Virus record (IMG/VR): IMGVR_UViG_3300042691_021282
Span: 1-64,000 of that record
Source: a virus
DNA length: 64,000 bases
Direction: 5' to 3' (one strand)
In this document: positions 2,970-59,205 of the stretch, one piece after another
Layout: each line of letters starts with the position of its first letter
Numbering within the stretch: the first letter of the stretch is position 1
Notes under the pieces: model-generated
Told to the model about the DNA's origin: nothing
Seen by the model: the letters and a program-made list of their open reading frames with translations, nothing else
Databases searched by the model: none
Program-made: the position numbers and the translations under genes

Positions 2970-5189
2970 TCAAGCAACCAATTGAATAAACTCACCAAGA
3001 ACTTTTTTATTTAGTTTTTTAGTCTTTAGAGATTTCACAAAAGCAGTTTTGATTTGTGCTTTTGTGGCATCATCAGAAACCGCAAAGTTAGAATCTTGAG
3101 ACAAAGCAGAGGAAGAAATACCAAAGTAAGCATCATAACCAGAATTGGTAATGGTGAAACTTTTGTTCTTTTTCCAGTCACTCTGGATTACATCATACTT
3201 CTTATCCTTCCAAGAATGATAAAGTTGAATGAATCGGTTTGCATCACGATTAGCAAGAACACGAATACCAATCAGATTAACAGAAGGAAACTTGTCCTTC
3301 AGATTCTTCAAAAGAGTATCAGTGTATCCATTGTAGTTATAATTAAACTTATAAGTCATTCCAGTTTTCCTATCACGAAGAAAAGAAGTCTCAGGATTAA
3401 CGTGACGAACACCCATATAAGGTTCTTTTTCCCAGTGACGTTTGACTTCAACGTGATGAGGAAGAGGAGGTGCTTCACCATCAGTCAGAACAATACACTG
3501 AACTTTCTGTAGTTTATTTTGACTTTGGAATTGGGGAATAATCTGGTGAAGACAGACCAGAGACTCATTCAAAGGAGTTCCAGAAAGAGACAAACGTGGG
3601 GAGACAGTGTAAGGAATACGATACACATTATCAAAATATGCTGCAATCCTCCAAATGTTCTTCATCTGATGCTCTAGTTTATTACCAGAAACTTTACTGG
3701 TAAGAAGATTCATTAGAGAGAAAGATTCATCAATCACAAGAACCCCTTCTTTTTTCTCATAGTGAGAAACCCTATCTGCTGCTTTATAATCACCCACAGT
3801 AGGGTCATAGTAAGGACGGTTCCATTCATTTGTGAAAGCATAAACTTCAAAAGGAATGGAGACTTTCTTACAGAACCAAATAAGGTTGAAGAGTTGCTTG
3901 CAAGTATCCAGAAGGACATTCTGCATAGAACCACTCCAGTCTAGAATAAAAATCAGACCGTGATTTTTACCATCAGGAAGAACAGTTACTTTCTTGAAAA
4001 TGTCTTCACTAAACTTATAAGAATGAAGACGACCAGTATCAAGAACACCTGTACGGGCAGTAGAAGCACGGGAATAAGCATCTGCTGCTTTACGGCACTC
4101 AAACTCTTTCACAAGATAGTTGACTTCTTTTTGTGCAGACAGTTTGAACTTCTGAAATTCAAAATCTACTTTTTCAAATAGATTCATTGAAGATTTATTG
4201 TTTGAAGAATTAATACCATCAATAGTCTTTTGTTGGAGATTAAAGCACTTGTCAATGTCTTCGTGAATCTCAGAATTTTTAGCAATAATGGTGTCAAGAT
4301 TTACTTTAGGAATCTCCACATAAACATTATCAGCACCATCTCGATTCACAAGATTGCGAAGTTTATCCTCCAGAGAATCTACAGTACGAACTTCAGGTTC
4401 TTCTTGAGTGTTGGAAGGTGCAATAGTATTTTGCTCATTTTGAGCATTTCCATCACTATTTTCTACAGATTCACTTTGAGTAGATTCTGACTCATTAGAT
4501 TGTCCTTCCTCTTCATCTTGAGGTTGCTCCATTTCTACATCTTCTCCATTAGGAGATTTAGAAGAATCTTGAGTTTCGTGAGAATCAAAATCAGCAACTT
4601 TTTGCTGTTGCTCTTGCCCTTTCTTACAATACTTATAAAGTTCTTCAGCAGCAATTAGAACATCTGCAAAAGATTCAGTAGAACCAATCAGGTCAACAAT
4701 CTCTTTCTCTTCTGGAGTGAAATCCAGAGGAAGAAAATTGCCAATTTTATAGTAAAGATTTGCTTTATCTGCAAGATTAAAGGTAGAAATATCTTCGTCT
4801 TCTAGTTGAAAGAAATCCTCTTCATTCAGTTCTTTATAACCATTGAAGAACGTTTTAGCAAGACCAGCATACTTACGTTTCATCAATTTTTCAATACGGG
4901 CATCTTCCACCACATTCACAAACTGTGGGGGGACTTTGACAGTCTTTGTCCAGTCTTCATCGGGAGTGAAGAGTGCGTGACCCACTTCGTGACCCACCAG
5001 AAGGTCGTAGACGGTCCCGCTAGCCTTCTCCCACAGAGGAAGAGTAAGAACACGAGTATGAACGTTGAAGCAAGCAGTCTCTACTTTCTTATGCTCAACA
5101 ACCAGGTCCTCAGTGGCAAGCAGTTTCGCAAGTTGGGATTTGATTTCGTGTCGAACAGGCATCGGTTTTGTTTCGTATGAATGAATCAT
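2970..5189 (-). CDS. CobT-like protein: HExxH metallopeptidase motif plus VWA domain
   Basis: 739 residues in three parts. The N-terminal domain contains HEVGH (67-71) followed by NVVEDARIEK (91-100), a gluzincin-like zinc site in which Glu94 may be the third ligand. Residues about 200-265 form an acidic, Ser/Gln-rich linker. The C-terminal half is a von Willebrand A domain with a complete MIDAS motif DWSGS (416-420) and a later LTDGEAPP. This is the layout of CobT-type partners of CobS AAA+ ATPases. Start: ATG 5189, with MPVRHE at 5162 as an alternative. It probably forms a MoxR-VWA complex with the downstream ATPase. The substrate is unknown, and proteolytic activity is only suggested by the motif. 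Confidence 0.8.
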   Translation of the reverse strand: MIHSYETKPMPVRHEIKSQLAKLLATEDLVVEHKKVETACFNVHTRVLTLPLWEKASGTVYDLLVGHEVGHALFTPDEDWTKTVKVPPQFVNVVEDARIEKLMKRKYAGLAKTFFNGYKELNEEDFFQLEDEDISTFNLADKANLYYKIGNFLPLDFTPEEKEIVDLIGSTESFADVLIAAEELYKYCKKGQEQQQKVADFDSHETQDSSKSPNGEDVEMEQPQDEEEGQSNESESTQSESVENSDGNAQNEQNTIAPSNTQEEPEVRTVDSLEDKLRNLVNRDGADNVYVEIPKVNLDTIIAKNSEIHEDIDKCFNLQQKTIDGINSSNNKSSMNLFEKVDFEFQKFKLSAQKEVNYLVKEFECRKAADAYSRASTARTGVLDTGRLHSYKFSEDIFKKVTVLPDGKNHGLIFILDWSGSMQNVLLDTCKQLFNLIWFCKKVSIPFEVYAFTNEWNRPYYDPTVGDYKAADRVSHYEKKEGVLVIDESFSLMNLLTSKVSGNKLEHQMKNIWRIAAYFDNVYRIPYTVSPRLSLSGTPLNESLVCLHQIIPQFQSQNKLQKVQCIVLTDGEAPPLPHHVEVKRHWEKEPYMGVRHVNPETSFLRDRKTGMTYKFNYNYNGYTDTLLKNLKDKFPSVNLIGIRVLANRDANRFIQLYHSWKDKKYDVIQSDWKKNKSFTITNSGYDAYFGISSSALSQDSNFAVSDDATKAQIKTAFVKSLKTKKLNKKVLGEFIQLVA

Positions 5190-17707: not shown

Positions 17708-19391
17708 TTTCCCCACCCTTGGGCATTTCTGCAACTTTAGCATCTACTTGAGTTGCTTTTCCTTGTGCATCAAGATTTGGTTCCATTACTGGTTGACCAA
17801 GATCCATTTGTGCGGTTTCTGGTCCCAAAGGCATACCAGTTGTAGGATCTACTGGAGCATTAGGATCAGGAATGATTCCATCTTCAATTTCTTTTTTCAT
17901 AATTTTATCTTGCTCAAGAATCTCTTCATCAGTCTGACGAAGAATTTTACGTCTCAGATAATCTTGAGAGAAATATTTGCCAACATATGGTTCGGCAATC
18001 TGAACCATATTCAGTCTTTCATTTAGAAGTTCAGCATCCTTAAGTTCCGCAAAGTGATTGTCATATAAAAAGTCATATTGAATATGTTCCTCCATTGTAT
18101 TCCAGTCTTCTGGAGTAATAATATTTTTAAGAATTAGTTGAGTTTTTAGCATATCGTGGAACATATAAGAAAATCTTTTTCTTAAACGAGCAACAAATTT
18201 GCTGAACTTAACTTCATCCCGAAGAATTTCGGAAGAACGACCGAGATTAAACCCACCTTCTCCGTCCATTCTTGATGGAGGAACATTCAAAGAACGATAA
18301 AGTTTCTTTTTAAAGTATTCAATATCAGTAATTTCTCCAAGATTTTGACCACCAGGAAGTGTAGAGATCTCAGTGCCTCTACCCCCTTCACGACGAGGAA
18401 GCCAGAAGTCCTCAAGCATTGCCATAAACTTACGATCATCACGAATTTCTCCGGTATTTGCATCATACACAAGTTTATTACGATAACGCATCATAACATC
18501 ACGAAGATATTGCTCTGCCTTTACTTTTGGAAGATTACCTACATCGATGTAGAAAATACGACGTTCTGGTGCTCTGGAAAGTCTATAAATTACAAGAGAG
18601 TCCTCAATCATTCTTAGTTGATTGAGAGATTTAATTGCCTTATGCAGATATGATAGTGTTGAACCTTTATTTCTATCTACTAAACCTGAAGTGCAATAAG
18701 TAATAGAATCTCTAGTAAATTTAACCCCACCAGTTCCTCCCATAGAAGAAGGATTTGATGTTGGATAATTCATTTTTGGGTTATAGATAAAGTATTCCTC
18801 AATTTGAGGAAATTCATAATTCATAGGATCGTCTGAATTTGATCCTGATAGTCTGTAAACTTTATTTTGCTTTTCTGTTTTTTTCTGCTGCCTCACATAA
18901 CGCATTTTCATTGGATCAATATATCTCAACTCTTGAATCCCTGCGTGAGGATCTTTTAAGTCAATAACCTTATGATAATATAGTCTTCCATCAACATACC
19001 AATTCCTATAAATTTCGTGAGATTTTTTATCAAAATCTAACAAAGATAAAATATATTTAAATTCTTGTCGTATTTTATTTTTGATGCCATCACTAGCATT
19101 TAAATTAGATAGCTCAATTTCTATAGGTGAATCATTTGTATCACTGACAATAGCTTCATTGACAATATCTTCAATGGCACTATCACATTCTGGATGAAGT
19201 GCCATTTCACGATATCTTTTAATTAAATCAAATTCTGTTCTATATACCCCTTCAATATCTACATAAGAGCCAAAAAAACCACTGCTCAGGTAGTAATCTG
19301 ATTCGTCCTCTCTATTCTCTGGAACAGGAGAAACGACACCCGGAGACAGTGGTTCTGTATCTTCAATAGAAAATCCAAATAACTTTGCCAT
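17703..19391 (-). CDS. 20: Portal vertex protein gp20
   Basis: 562 residues (T4 gp20 is 524). LIKRYREMALHPECDSAIED (about 55-74) and VNEAIVSDTND, RAPERRIFYIDVGNLP, AEQYLRDVMMRYRNKLVYD and LPRREGGRGTEISTLPGGQN are classic cyanophage g20 marker segments. It forms the dodecameric portal through which DNA is packaged and to which the neck attaches. The C-terminus is Pro/Met-rich (DPNAPVDPTTGMPLG). A GATAAATA late element is 27 bases upstream. Confidence 0.97.
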   Translation of the reverse strand: MAKLFGFSIEDTEPLSPGVVSPVPENREDESDYYLSSGFFGSYVDIEGVYRTEFDLIKRYREMALHPECDSAIEDIVNEAIVSDTNDSPIEIELSNLNASDGIKNKIRQEFKYILSLLDFDKKSHEIYRNWYVDGRLYYHKVIDLKDPHAGIQELRYIDPMKMRYVRQQKKTEKQNKVYRLSGSNSDDPMNYEFPQIEEYFIYNPKMNYPTSNPSSMGGTGGVKFTRDSITYCTSGLVDRNKGSTLSYLHKAIKSLNQLRMIEDSLVIYRLSRAPERRIFYIDVGNLPKVKAEQYLRDVMMRYRNKLVYDANTGEIRDDRKFMAMLEDFWLPRREGGRGTEISTLPGGQNLGEITDIEYFKKKLYRSLNVPPSRMDGEGGFNLGRSSEILRDEVKFSKFVARLRKRFSYMFHDMLKTQLILKNIITPEDWNTMEEHIQYDFLYDNHFAELKDAELLNERLNMVQIAEPYVGKYFSQDYLRRKILRQTDEEILEQDKIMKKEIEDGIIPDPNAPVDPTTGMPLGPETAQMDLGQPVMEPNLDAQGKATQVDAKVAEMPKGGEI

Positions 19392-49100: not shown

Positions 49101-52100
49101 CCAACAATACTTATCTTTGGTGTCGAATAATATTGAGTCCCACTATTGATTACTATAACATCTACTATTTTCCCATTTGATACTATTGGTTTTACCTGGG
49201 CATTTTTGCCAGTTAATGCAGTTATAACAGGTTGTCTATTATAATTGAGAATCTCAGATCCATATGAAGATCCTTTGTTTTCTAAGTGGACCGAAGTAAT
49301 CTTTCCCGTAAATATTGGTCTTAAATCTACTTGATTTGAATAGGTACTACCTATTCCTGTTTTGCCAATTACCGTTATTGTTATTGGTTCATAGTTAAAC
49401 GAATGAGTCCCTAAACCGGTGGAGTTAAAATTAATATAATTTTTAGTTTTATAGAAGAAATCCTTTTCAGTAGTTCCTAAAGCAACGTTGGATAATTTAA
49501 AATTATTTTTATCAACAACTGTTACGTAATATGAGGAATTTGATACAAGACCTCCAATATCAGTATTTGACGAAGTATAAGTTACTATTTCTCCTTCACG
49601 GTAATCGTGATTTTTTATAGTAATTATTCCAGAAAATGTATTAATTCCCACAGGAGAAACGGTTCTTTTTTTTGTCTCATATCCGTAACCAGAATTAATT
49701 ACTTGTGCCGACCCAATTTGTTTTTTCTTTGAAAGAGATTTAAACAAATGTCTACCAGTACCTATACCAATCAAATTAACAGTATTGATTCCAATAGAAG
49801 CATCATCTAAATTATTATATAATTTAACCGTAAATGCATCAATAACAGATGCATAGTATTGAGAATTTGTACTTAACCCTGATATTTTAGTTTGCCCTTG
49901 TGGATCATAAAGAACAACTTCATTATTTCTAAATTTATGGTAGGTAGTAAAACCTACAGTATTAGTTACTGTATTGATTCCTGTCTTTGCATTAAAAGAT
50001 GCTGAATAATCTATTGATACTAAGTTCAAAGAAACTTGTGCTTCTTTTCCATTACCACCGGATATAATAACAGTAGGAGTTTCTGTGAAATCAAAACCTG
50101 GATCAATAATATCAACTCTTTCTAAAGATCCATTGATTGATAAGTATCCATTTGCACCAAAACCATTATCATCTTCAATACTTAATACTGGTGGATTAAT
50201 AATATCATATCCACTCCCTGATGCGGTTGGAAAAATGTCTTCTATTTCTCCATAATATAAAACATCTTTAGATTTATAATTCAATAACTCAACTCCATTC
50301 ACAAAAATTCCAGTTGTTCCTGGAAAAGTTTCTACGTTAGAATTGTTATCAGGAATTTTAGGAGTTGATAGTTCTCTAAAAATATTTTGAGGTAGTAATT
50401 TTTTAGTGTCAAGAGTTGAATTTGTAAATGATTCTAACACAAATTTATTATTTGTAACACTACCGGTCACTTTAACAAAGTTTTGCGTGTAGATATTTTC
50501 TCTACTTCTAGCAAGTTTAATATTATTTTGATCTACAGCATAAACAAAATAAATTCCTTTTTTAAGATCTAACTTATTGTTATTATCTCCTGGCACATAA
50601 ACAACAGCATCACCAGTGTAAAATCTATGAGAAATTGCATTAATTATTTCAGATTCAATATATGAACCAGAAAAAGTCACTGATCTATCAGTTATTAATA
50701 ATGGTTCAAAAATATAATTTGGCAATGATTGCGAATTTACAAAAATATTTTGCTCTTTATCAATATAAACGTTTTGAACATTTGTAGAATATTTTGAAAG
50801 TTCTGGGTAATTTATCGAATTAACTTTTAAAATATTTTTTCTTAATGTATAACTAATAGATTCATTTACATCTTCAAATCCGACAACAAAAAATGTTTTT
50901 TTGTTTGATTGCCCTACTATGGTTCCATTTTTTGGAGATCCTTCACTGTATAATAAAGTAACAGAATCTCCTACTTTTAAAATATTGTCATCATATAAAA
51001 CAACTTCATAAACTAAATTAGCAGTATCAACTAAAGAAATTTTTTCTAATTTATATTTTGTTGTTATGTTATAAAACCAATTTTCAGACTTTACAGTTTC
51101 TAAATTCTTGCCTAGAGTTTTAATTTTTATTCTTTCATTTATGGATGAATAATATGGAGTTGATTCAATATTTACTGAAGATAAAACCCCACCTACAAAA
51201 ACTTTAATCTGCTCAGAACCATTGTATCCATAAGCGAAAGTATTTAATCTAATAGTAGAATTTACACTAATATCTTGAACTATACCACTGCAATCTAAAA
51301 ATTGAGTAGATGTTCTTGATAAGTAAGATACTACAAAAGTTGTTCCATCTATTTTTTGAATTAACAGTTCACCAGAGTCTGGAAATCCTATAGTTGAATC
51401 TACATCAATAAAATCACTACCAGAACTGATATCTATTGTAGTTTTTGATTTTGGATGGATAGTAAATTCCCCTAGATTTGAACTATAAGTATTTTCTTTT
51501 GTTTGATCTAAACTTATAGTATAGTAAAAGTTACTTCCTCTTTGAATTTTTTCTACCTTAGCAATTGTTCCCTTTGATTGTGGGATGTTAAGATATTCGT
51601 CTTGATATAAAGTTAAGTTTTCTAGATCTTCTGGGTCTCCTTCAAATTGTTCAACAACTAAATCTCTAAAAACATTATACTGAGCATCTGAAGACTGAAT
51701 AACAAAATCTCTTGGTCTAATGATACTTACATCTTCACCAAAGAGTGCTCTGAAAAGAAGTTCAAAGGAGCAATCAGATCCCTTTGATTGGTAAAATTGC
51801 TTTATATTGCGAATAAATGTTGCTTCATTGATTTGGTCATAAAATTCTTCATCTTCAAATCCTGGAGCAAGTTGAATTTTGATTTTTTTGAAGAATTCTG
51901 TAAGAAATATTATGCTTAAATTGGTTATTTCTGACCCTAATACGTGACTGTCAATTGAAGTTTCTTCATAGACAAGTTCATCTGTTGTATTATCTGAATC
52001 ATATGCTACAGTAGCATTAAATCCTCTAGTACAATTTGTAAGTTTATTTCCATTAATTTCGCAGGTATATGTATTTGATGAATTATAAACACTAACTTCA

Positions 52101-57330: not shown

Positions 57331-57743
57331 CTTATAGGTCCGGAAAAATTTTATGAGAGTGATATTTAGAGGTCGATTTGTCACCTCTGTAGGTTAGGGT
57401 AGTTTGGGTTTTTATATACGGGGGGCAACGGCAACGCAAAATATAAACAATAACAAACAACATCAAATAACTGCTATAACGAATAACAAACTGACAACGA
57501 ATAAAGTATAGTTATTCGTCTATTTTACATCAACTGCCCCCATCTTCTAGTGTATTATAATACATCAGTGCAGTTGTTTATACTGCCAACACGAACATTT
57601 CCACGATATAATTATATTTTACACCATTCTTTATATCAACTGCCAGCACATTGTCGATAAAATCTAAACAACTGACACGAAGAATGTATAAAGAACGACG
57701 CAAAGTATAATTATATCAACTGAAAGTACTGATAGTATTACTA
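57331..57743. other. Gene-free AT-rich region with short repeats
   Basis: No convincing ORF. It contains three ATCAACTG boxes (57529, 57635, 57715; two extended to ATCAACTGCC), a perfect 14-bp palindrome TGTATTATAATACA (57551-57564), and many ACGAAT/ATTCGT words. A weak minus-strand promoter (TTGCGT-N17-TATAAA near 57405-57440) may serve the 47-codon gene. Probably regulatory for the flanking small genes. Confidence 0.5.
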
Positions 57744-57911
57744 TTACCAGGGCACAGAGAGGTCTTCTACATAACTCTTGACTGATTCATTATGCTCAAG
57801 TTCAAAGAGTTTCTTCCAATCAATCTGATGAGGGTCGAAATCACCCAGAACGTCAAGTTCTAACGTGATACGATACTTATTCTTTTGTGCTAAGAGGTAC
57901 GAACTAGCCAT
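57744..57911 (-). CDS. Small protein, 55 aa, under tandem host-type promoters
   Basis: Starts MASSYLLAQKNKYRITLELD and ends VKSYVEDLSVPW. The middle, DFDPHQIDWKKLFELE, resembles short proteins I recall from cyanophages, with no known role. It is isolated between two gene-free stretches and preceded by two near-consensus sigma70 promoters. Strong early expression of so small a protein suggests a host-directed function; that is inference. Confidence 0.75.
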   Translation of the reverse strand: MASSYLLAQKNKYRITLELDVLGDFDPHQIDWKKLFELEHNESVKSYVEDLSVPW

Positions 57912-57943
57912 AAGTCGATGAGAAGAACTAACTGCTTAACGTT

Positions 57944-57972
57944 ATCCTACCAGGAATTATATCCCCTGTCAA
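57944..57972 (-). promoter_or_regulatory. Sigma70-type promoter (proximal) for the 55-aa gene
   Basis: Minus strand TTGACA (57972-57967), 17 bases, TAGGAT (57949-57944), 33 bases before the ATG. Perfect -35 and spacing. Confidence 0.75.
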
Positions 57973-58003
57973 GTGTTATATCTTACACGAACTCATAGAC
58001 ACA

Positions 58004-58300
58004 ACGAATCAACCCCTTATAAACACTTCTTTATAAAAGGTCAAAGTCTATTCTTATAAACGAATTCTATTATACACGAATCAATCACAAAAGTCAATCT
58101 TGTTCTATGCTTATATGTGAAAATCTCATACGAAGCATATCTAATCACGAATGAACTTTGTGATGATAATGCGTAGTGCTCTTCTATTATAAGAAAGCAT
58201 ACGAAATCTATCTAATCACGAATGAACTTTTAATTCAATTTATAATATAATGATTATGTGATAATATTATACATCAATTATCTAATAACGAATGAACTTT
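58004..58300. repeat. Five-copy motif array with a period near 71 bp
   Basis: ACGAATSAA occurs at 58004, 58076, 58147, 58218 and 58288, spaced 72, 71, 71 and 70 bases. The last three copies lie in a conserved 21-mer (58139-58159, 58210-58230, 58280-58300) that differs by one base in the third. Sequence between copies is AT-rich and different. Iteron-like or operator-like; there are too few copies and too poor conservation for CRISPR. Confidence 0.8.
58069..58097 (-). promoter_or_regulatory. Sigma70-type promoter (distal) for the 55-aa gene
   Basis: Minus strand TTGACT (58097-58092), 17 bases, TATAAT (58074-58069). One copy of the ACGAATSAA array (58076-58084) fills the spacer next to the -10, so an array-binding protein would block or modulate it. 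Confidence 0.75.
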
Positions 58301-58454
58301 TTATACTATAAACAATAATCATTACTGAAAGTAGCAGAGATTTCTATTTGTCCTGTGCGAAAGACTTATCTCATCAGGTGAACTGCCTATTGTGCTCTCT
58401 TGGAATAGAAATTTACTTTAAGTTCAATCCTAATTATTGTATTTCATACTCGGT

Positions 58455-58502: not shown

Positions 58503-58534
58503 ATATTTATCAATACTGGGTATTTGATAAATAT
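58503..58534. repeat. Inverted repeat covering a late promoter
   Basis: Perfect 11-bp arms ATATTTATCAA (58503-58513) and TTGATAAATAT (58524-58534) with a 10-base spacer. The right arm contains the plus-strand GATAAATA and the left arm its mirror image on the minus strand. It could be an operator or simply a bidirectional late element. Confidence 0.75.
58526..58533 (+). promoter_or_regulatory. Late-type promoter GATAAATA upstream of the nested hairpin
   Basis: GATAAATA ending five bases before the left arm of the 15-bp inverted repeat at 58539. A T4-like start site about six bases downstream would begin the RNA at that arm. Confidence 0.55.
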
Positions 58535-58538
58535 AATG

Positions 58539-58626
58539 TCTGTTTGGGTTGCACTTTACAGACGGGGAGCAGAGTTAGATTCTCTCTGCTCCCTTTAATA
58601 TAAATAACTTCTGCAACCCAAACAGA
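58539..58626. repeat. Nested inverted repeats in the leader of the plus-strand gene
   Basis: Outer arms TCTGTTTGGGTTGCA (58539-58553) and TGCAACCCAAACAGA (58612-58626) are perfectly complementary over 15 bp. Inside them GGGAGCAGAG (58565-58574) and CTCTGCTCCC (58584-58593) form a 10-bp stem with a 9-base loop. An alternative GTCTG/CAGAC pairing (58538-58542 with 58559-58563) competes with the outer stem. The ATG of the plus-strand gene is seven bases past the right arm. Confidence 0.9.
58599..58606 (+). promoter_or_regulatory. Late promoter TATAAATA inside the nested repeat
   Basis: Exact T4-type late octamer, ending five bases before the right outer arm and 27 bases before the ATG of the plus-strand gene. 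RNA from here would lack the left arm and so could not form the long stem. Confidence 0.7.
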
Positions 58627-58632
58627 ACAGAT

Positions 58633-59205
58633 ATGGAACACTTTAACTGTAAAAAGTTAAATGAAGTCTTTAATGTTGATGGATTAGATTATATCCAAAT
58701 AGAGGACATTAAAAAAGAATTCAATTCAATCTCCACTTTCAATCTCAATCGTAAAAAAGGAATTGGAGATATTATTAAAAATAAAACAGAAATATTAAAA
58801 ATATCAAAAAGTGATACTGAAGATATAATCTATCAAAAAGAGAAAACTAAAGATAATACCATCAATTCTATAAATGAATGGATTGATAATACTTTTGCTG
58901 AGTTATTAAAACAACAAAGCAATCTTCTAACTCATTTAGAATGGAAAAACACACAGATAAAGAAACTTGAAAAACTTCCTTTAAGTGAATATAAAAAGAT
59001 TAGAGAAAGTTTTATTGATTTTATTAGTTCTATGGACTGTGAATTAGAAGAAAAACTATGTCAAAACAAAGTAATTGAAAATAAAAGCATTAACGAAATC
59101 AACTTAGAGAAAAGAAAAGAGAATATAAGGGCACAAGTAAAAAATCAAAAAAGTAATCTTAAGGATGATAAGAAACTACCGGACTTTTCTAACTTTATAC
59201 TTTAG
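58633..59205 (+). CDS. Lone plus-strand gene, unknown protein of 190 aa
   Basis: Starts MEHFNCKKLNEVFNVDGLDY. Very rich in Lys, Asn, Ile and Glu, mostly helical, with coiled-coil stretches such as LEEKLCQNKVIENKSINEIN. No catalytic motif, membrane segment or signal peptide seen. It is the only convincing gene on this strand in the window, lies between gene-free regions and is more AT-rich in codon use than its neighbours, so it looks like an accessory insertion. The leader has two late promoters and a nested hairpin, and no Shine-Dalgarno. Function unknown; regulatory or host-takeover roles are only guesses. Confidence 0.75.
   Translation: MEHFNCKKLNEVFNVDGLDYIQIEDIKKEFNSISTFNLNRKKGIGDIIKNKTEILKISKSDTEDIIYQKEKTKDNTINSINEWIDNTFAELLKQQSNLLTHLEWKNTQIKKLEKLPLSEYKKIRESFIDFISSMDCELEEKLCQNKVIENKSINEINLEKRKENIRAQVKNQKSNLKDDKKLPDFSNFIL

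Follow-up and report, generated by a model that had tools for sequence, protein, structure and literature searches.

What does a leader do that carries a late-type promoter in front of each arm of a perfect inverted repeat, immediately ahead of a start codon? This question is raised by one locus in the window (the whole 64,000-nucleotide stretch of DNA analysed here, itself part of a 95,480-base virus record), whose virus, judged by its genes, is a T4-like cyanophage with a gp6 that is 56-59% identical over its full length to those of Synechococcus and Prochlorococcus phages. A preliminary description had reported a 15-bp perfect inverted repeat around a 10-bp hairpin, a late octamer exactly five bases ahead of each arm, and behind them the sole plus-strand gene, and the sequence bears out each of these statements. 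The arms at 58539-58553 (TCTGTTTGGGTTGCA) and 58612-58626 (TGCAACCCAAACAGA) are 15 nt long, 100% complementary and 58 nt apart, and the inner hairpin between them (58565-58574/58584-58593) is a perfect 10 bp. The octamers, both on the plus strand like all features below, are GATAAATA at 58526-58533 (P1, predicted start ~58539) and TATAAATA at 58599-58606 (P2, predicted start ~58612), each separated from its arm by 5 nt. The P2 mRNA is thus predicted to begin with the right arm, and the left arm, the reverse complement of that 5' end, is called the anti-arm here. The predicted P1 RNA would begin with a hairpin, H1 (58539-58562, stem 58539-58543/58558-58562), that holds most of the anti-arm in its loop, and this is followed by a terminator-like hairpin with a short T run (58564-58596, stem 58564-58574/58584-58594). 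The 190-aa open reading frame at 58633-59205, which is predicted to be under the control of this leader, stands alone as a convincing gene on the plus strand, where the other long ORFs overlap ORFs of the opposite strand.

The leader folds with a calculated energy of -58.7 kcal/mol (z = -7.4, matched by none of 200 shuffled sequences), and the window has three perfect 15-bp inverted repeats with gaps of up to 150 nt where 30 first-order Markov simulations of the window's composition gave none. The motif NATAAATA, which is published as a cyanophage late motif (PMC2984593), has a frequency of about 1.8 per 10 kb on each strand. The window leader indeed lacks a Shine-Dalgarno sequence, as had been noticed (ACAGATATGG); in many relatives a weak GAG stands at the base of the stem (TTTAGAGTAGAAATG). 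The further 11-bp inverted repeat that had been described across the first promoter is present in the window (58503-58513/58524-58534), but sequence inspection found none around the P1 of the related loci L002 and L004 (below), and for this reason we treat it as lying outside the element. Rfam gave no match at the gathering threshold, and at E values of up to 1 it gave one chance miRNA match. Upstream of the leader the window contains three direct repeats (TCTAATCACGAATGAACTTT) with ~70-bp spacing at 58143-58295 that are iteron-like or promoter-like, and a similar unit (CTTATCTAATCACGAATGACTTT) is repeated about four times in L002 (4640-4880) and in L003; the CACGAA motif is common throughout 57400-58300. 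An imperfect 37-nt inverted repeat (58312-58440, 70% complementary), which encloses sequence of structured appearance, lies between the direct repeats and P1 and is absent from the corresponding place in L002.

The product of the 190-aa gene has an identical copy (L001) and relatives at three further loci in viral contigs, L002 and L003, which are nearly the same as one another and 67% identical to it, and L004, at 46-48%. L002, L003 and L004 carry the same leader immediately before the gene, with the promoters kept at the same spacing, even though unrelated DNA lies upstream of P1. The outer arms are nearly constant in the three diverged lineages of this gene, and the inner hairpin is altered on both of its strands (GGGAGCAGAG/CTCTGCTCCC; GGGAATGGAG/CTCTGTTCCC; GGTGCCAGAG/CTCTGGCACC). 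Comparison with L002 gave a dN of 0.18 and a dS of 0.63, and as judged by these rates the gene is under purifying selection. The protein has no accepted Pfam or PHROG match and no endonuclease match, its AlphaFold model is uninformative (pLDDT 45), and no relative of it came from named phages, which were searched by BLAST with the region, the protein and the element, or from a search of genome contigs. The leader itself suggests that this orphan either is a mobile endonuclease-type gene or took the place of one, since the same leader occurs elsewhere on such genes as follows.

The preliminary description had taken the structure for a single oddity; the window copy does exist as described and is one member of a family of cassettes that sit on homing-endonuclease genes. 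A search with P2 plus the arm found the same leader before GIY-YIG-type genes in L030 and L038; BLAST and other searches added a second copy in the record of L030 and more in phages S-SRM01 (near 17974 and 192423) and S-N03 (near 50115), with arms that are different yet complementary; and a motif-only scan for the terminator plus P2 yielded most of the family. The set comprises 32 aligned copies, which represent far fewer independent events because many are related by descent, and 3 from a later scan, all in T4-like cyanophages. Four of the 32 are in the window's own genome beyond the window (G000 72022-72128, 75061-75167, 83737-83837 and 94550-94659), on the minus strand and every one before a homing-endonuclease ORF. 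L008 was rejected as a cassette, its arm pattern having matched by chance within coding sequence, and so were matches in Serratia, Campylobacter, S-SM1, ACG-2014g and DSL-LC03, which are ordinary terminators, a terminator with a promoter, or chance.

The order of the elements is constant: P1 (N[A/C]TAAATA), H1, the terminator-like hairpin, P2 (TATAAATA), the arm and the ATG. From P1 there are 5 nt to the predicted start at H1, and from P2 there are 3-5 nt to the arm (in all copies), with the ATG 5-17 nt beyond it. The TAAATA core of P1 is in place at constant spacing in all 32 copies, and there is no further TAAATA among 1760 upstream positions; P2 is likewise invariant (32/32), which must be read with the knowledge that its sequence belonged to the search pattern. 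T4 late boxes are numbered from -13, that is from -13 to -6, and a C at -12 is a late-promoter variant of Aeh1 (PMC2988020), which the NCTAAATA forms of P1 match. From that numbering the predicted P1 and P2 starts fall at, or 1-2 nt off, H1 and the arm; P2 itself is flanked by the two arms, and in 32/32 copies no more than 1-2 nt separate its predicted start from the right arm. H1 is a hairpin of 4-8 bp whose loop contains most of the anti-arm and which is folded in all 32 predicted P1 RNAs. The second hairpin is rich in G+C and usually has TTTTT behind it; the window copy has only TTT, so termination may be weak there.

Are the arms maintained because they pair? The preliminary description had pointed to relatives as the place to look for conservation or covariation of the arms, and the arms do covary. 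The copies show 24 distinct arm pairs, with at least three standard pair types at every one of the nine innermost positions. Among 15 arm classes, an arm matches the partner of its own class over a mean of 10.8 nt and those of other classes over 4.6 nt (0 of 20,000 permutations). In a clean alignment of 12 rows, 113 of 113 cells are paired and eight of the ten pairs are altered on both sides (0 of 500 shuffles), and shifting the partner by 1-3 columns abolishes the pairing signal. Within H1, too, the 5' strand fits the 3' strand of its own class better than the 3' strands of others (0 of 20,000 permutations). This signal is weaker than that of the arms because in many copies the 5' strand of H1 is also in the outer stem, and part of the conservation of H1 could simply follow from that of the arms. 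Our first collection of arms was selective, as copies had partly been found through their arms, and the motif-only scans are for that reason the unbiased test.

The scan for the terminator plus P2, which was blind to the arms, gave 40 distinct sites. P1 and arms are present at 18, all of them before homing-endonuclease-type ORFs (one such ORF is cut by a contig end and was assigned through its similarity to L133). The other 22, which are not 22 independent cases because they belong mostly to two gene families, have other ORFs or none and carry neither P1 nor arms, with arm runs of 4-7 nt. A second motif-only scan gave four distinct sites, three with P1 and arms (two before HNH genes and one, in L132, without a gene) and a fourth with neither P1 nor arms, before another gene. 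Nearly all cassettes thus precede GIY-YIG or HNH homing-endonuclease genes, the window copy preceding the orphan. By PHROGs and Pfam, most of the scanned downstream proteins belong to homing, GIY-YIG, HNH or NUMOD3 families; L106:4311-5087 has no accepted match and by eye resembles the IYTYKITF group, other members of which have weak phrog_314 matches. Two further observations concern the surroundings of such genes. Near the orphan gene in L003 there are, by eye, another HNH-like ORF and a GIY-YIG-like ORF (1068-1544 and 4219-5028), which suggests an endonuclease-rich variable region. The complete cassette of L132 (arms AATTGACCGCA), on the minus strand near 1983 (0-based, reverse complement), stands before a 5-codon ORF and is apparently a solo or decayed copy left after loss of the endonuclease gene.

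Does the leader travel with the gene? In S-N03 a cassette and its homing endonuclease (L053, 50115-50769) lie between clamp-loader genes 44 and 62, and MA10 has the corresponding empty site, where the two genes overlap by 4 nt and there is no insert. Homology between S-N03 and MA10 ends 4 nt before P1, and so P1 arrived with the insert instead of being taken from the target. One arm pair, AATGACGGCA/TGCCGTCATT, recurs unchanged in L090, L091, L096, L110, L125 and L133 with several unrelated endonuclease types, which indicates that the leader has been exchanged as a module. At the level of sequence these comparisons demonstrate a conserved order of elements, covarying arms and mobility of the leader together with its gene.

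The statement in the preliminary description that no element like this had been described was too strong, because a late promoter inside a hairpin that blocks the ribosome binding site is published for I-TevI, I-TevII, I-TevIII, segB, Aeh1 mobE and T4 gene e, and gene e has two late promoters, both of whose RNAs miss the 5' part of the structure (PMC2988022, PMC3014915). Like these systems, the cassette has a T4-type late promoter inside an inverted repeat, a predicted late RNA without the 5' arm and a longer RNA that in silico hides the start region, and nearly all copies other than the window's precede homing-endonuclease genes. It differs from all of them in having a second late promoter that would start an RNA at the other arm, an anti-arm displayed in its own small hairpin and a terminator-like hairpin between the arms, and in recurring as a module before unrelated endonuclease families. 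The half that concerns sequestration in cis is thus already known, and what is new lies in the added late promoter, the hairpin that presents the anti-arm and the terminator inside the repeat; no description of such a paired-late-promoter cassette was found in the literature searched, which included few subscription papers.

Folding of the two leaders agrees with the known half. The mean unpaired probability of the start region (-15 to the start codon) is 0.36 in the readthrough RNA and 0.58 in the P2 RNA; it is less open in the upstream RNA than in the P2 RNA in 31 of 32 copies, one copy being opposite, and the modelled difference is of moderate size. The contrast between a structured upstream RNA and a free downstream RNA that the preliminary description had drawn is upheld by these predictions, but its expectation that the P1 transcript folds the whole structure is not: because the inner hairpin is terminator-like, most P1 RNA should end there. 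Late RNA polymerase starting at P2 would make an mRNA that begins at or next to the arm, with a short leader free for ribosomes, and RNA from P1 or from upstream genes that contains both arms would form a long stem that stops a few nucleotides short of the ATG and be poorly translated. That translation comes from P2 only and that the longer RNA is sequestered in cis we consider quite likely. The conserved upstream promoter P1 is itself of the late type, and early readthrough could occur as well.

What, then, is P1 for? It is possible, though on the doubtful side, that control is entirely in cis, as in I-TevI and mobE: the arms would do nothing but block the start codon in readthrough RNA and leave the P2 RNA translatable, P1 and the terminator would only restore or insulate transcription around the insertion, and the short P1 RNA would have no target. 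Such control is published for several T4-type endonucleases and for gene e, the start region is less accessible in the predicted readthrough RNA, and the stem reaches to within 5-17 nt of the ATG. Yet P1 and P2 are both late-type, so that a switch from early to late transcription leaves P1 unexplained; the spacing between P1 and H1 is fixed while other surroundings vary, and H1 covaries; and the empty site that corresponds to the S-N03 insertion has no promoter to restore. A second late promoter, an anti-arm hairpin and a terminator are not needed by the cis logic, and together they have the anatomy of a short antisense RNA. P1 transcripts would mostly stop at the terminator to give an RNA of 49-64 nt (83 nt in S-N03), in which the H1 loop and 5' strand are complementary to the P2 mRNA over its first 10-17 nt, and this RNA would brake the endonuclease, most likely by denying ribosomes access. 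Predicted duplexes between the P1 RNA (H1 plus terminator) and the 5' end of the mRNA have energies of -18.8 to -26.2 kcal/mol; the cross-duplex energies among the five copies in the window's genome were set aside, as they are confounded by the G-rich strand of the terminator. The reading that we lean towards is a portable late-expression unit on homing-endonuclease-type mobile genes of T4-like cyanophages, combining a block in cis with an antisense brake from P1. Its parts are not equally firm: P1 probably yields a terminated RNA, and this RNA may act in trans on the mRNA, a step that we propose tentatively, partly because the T run of the window terminator is short. More tentative by a shade is the suggestion that the cassette encodes a dedicated antisense sRNA on the same strand, upstream of its gene and from a second promoter of the gene's own type. 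If so, each selfish endonuclease gene would have its own co-evolving antisense pair, and expression would be limited by dose within a single phage genome that carries several such genes.

The arms might instead work as DNA, either as an operator for the encoded protein or as a recombination point for the insertion, with the RNA structures as side effects. I-TevI binds an operator at its own late promoter and represses it (PMC2988022), the inserts start close to P1, and identical arms are found with different endonuclease types, leaders having been swapped. We nevertheless regard action on DNA as improbable, since 24 arm sequences that are kept complementary suit pairing better than recognition by a protein, the H1 strands also match class by class, and the distance from P2 to the arm is fixed to a predicted start site. 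Classical attenuation, in which the P1 RNA would choose between a terminator and an antiterminator, could appeal to the terminator-like hairpin between P1 and P2, but the stem formed by arm and anti-arm encloses that hairpin without overlapping it, and pairing of the arms thus cannot stop its formation; with no leader peptide or sensor seen as well, attenuation was discarded on this topology and seems to us highly improbable.

How would an antisense brake compare with known ones? The RNA-OUT of IS10, which controls transposase by antisense, is 69 nt long, is made from the opposite strand and overlaps its target (PMC5006887). Like RNA-OUT with RNA-IN, the predicted P1 RNA is short and structured and has as its complement the 5' end and start region of a mobile gene's mRNA; it is similar in size (49-64 nt) and would also pair through its 5' part, whereas the putative P1 antisense RNA comes from the same strand, just upstream, by way of an inverted repeat. 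CfrI of cyanophage S-PM2 is a ~225 nt antisense RNA from the opposite strand across psbA and an endonuclease gene (PMC2984593); it shares with the cassette's predicted RNA the tie to a cyanophage homing-endonuclease gene and differs in that the latter is short and on its target's own strand. In its general layout the cassette also places a phage promoter behind a stem-loop terminator. This layout is reportedly that of the PeSL promoter-stem-loop cassettes of T4-like phages (Arbiol 2010 and Comeau 2014 are cited for them in PMC4503421), which join a stem-loop terminator to an early promoter at the edges of exchanged modules; unlike these, the present cassette has two late-consensus promoters, covarying arms and homing endonucleases.

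T4-like phages are rich in homing endonucleases, and the way in which these limit the harm done by their own expression is only partly understood. The arrangement found here suggests that an inverted repeat with paired promoters can make an antisense regulator on its target's own strand, and the covarying arms make this idea directly testable in the leaders of the named phages S-SRM01 and S-N03. The cassette is in addition a compact signature by which such genes can be found, even where, as with the orphan in the window, they have gone unrecognised. A second type of leader precedes GIY-YIG genes on the minus strands of L009 and L080 (near 1294 and 547, respectively; both 0-based, reverse complement): it has arms of 13-14 nt, a right arm separated from the ATG by 0-1 nt, the anti-arm within the terminator region and no obvious P1.
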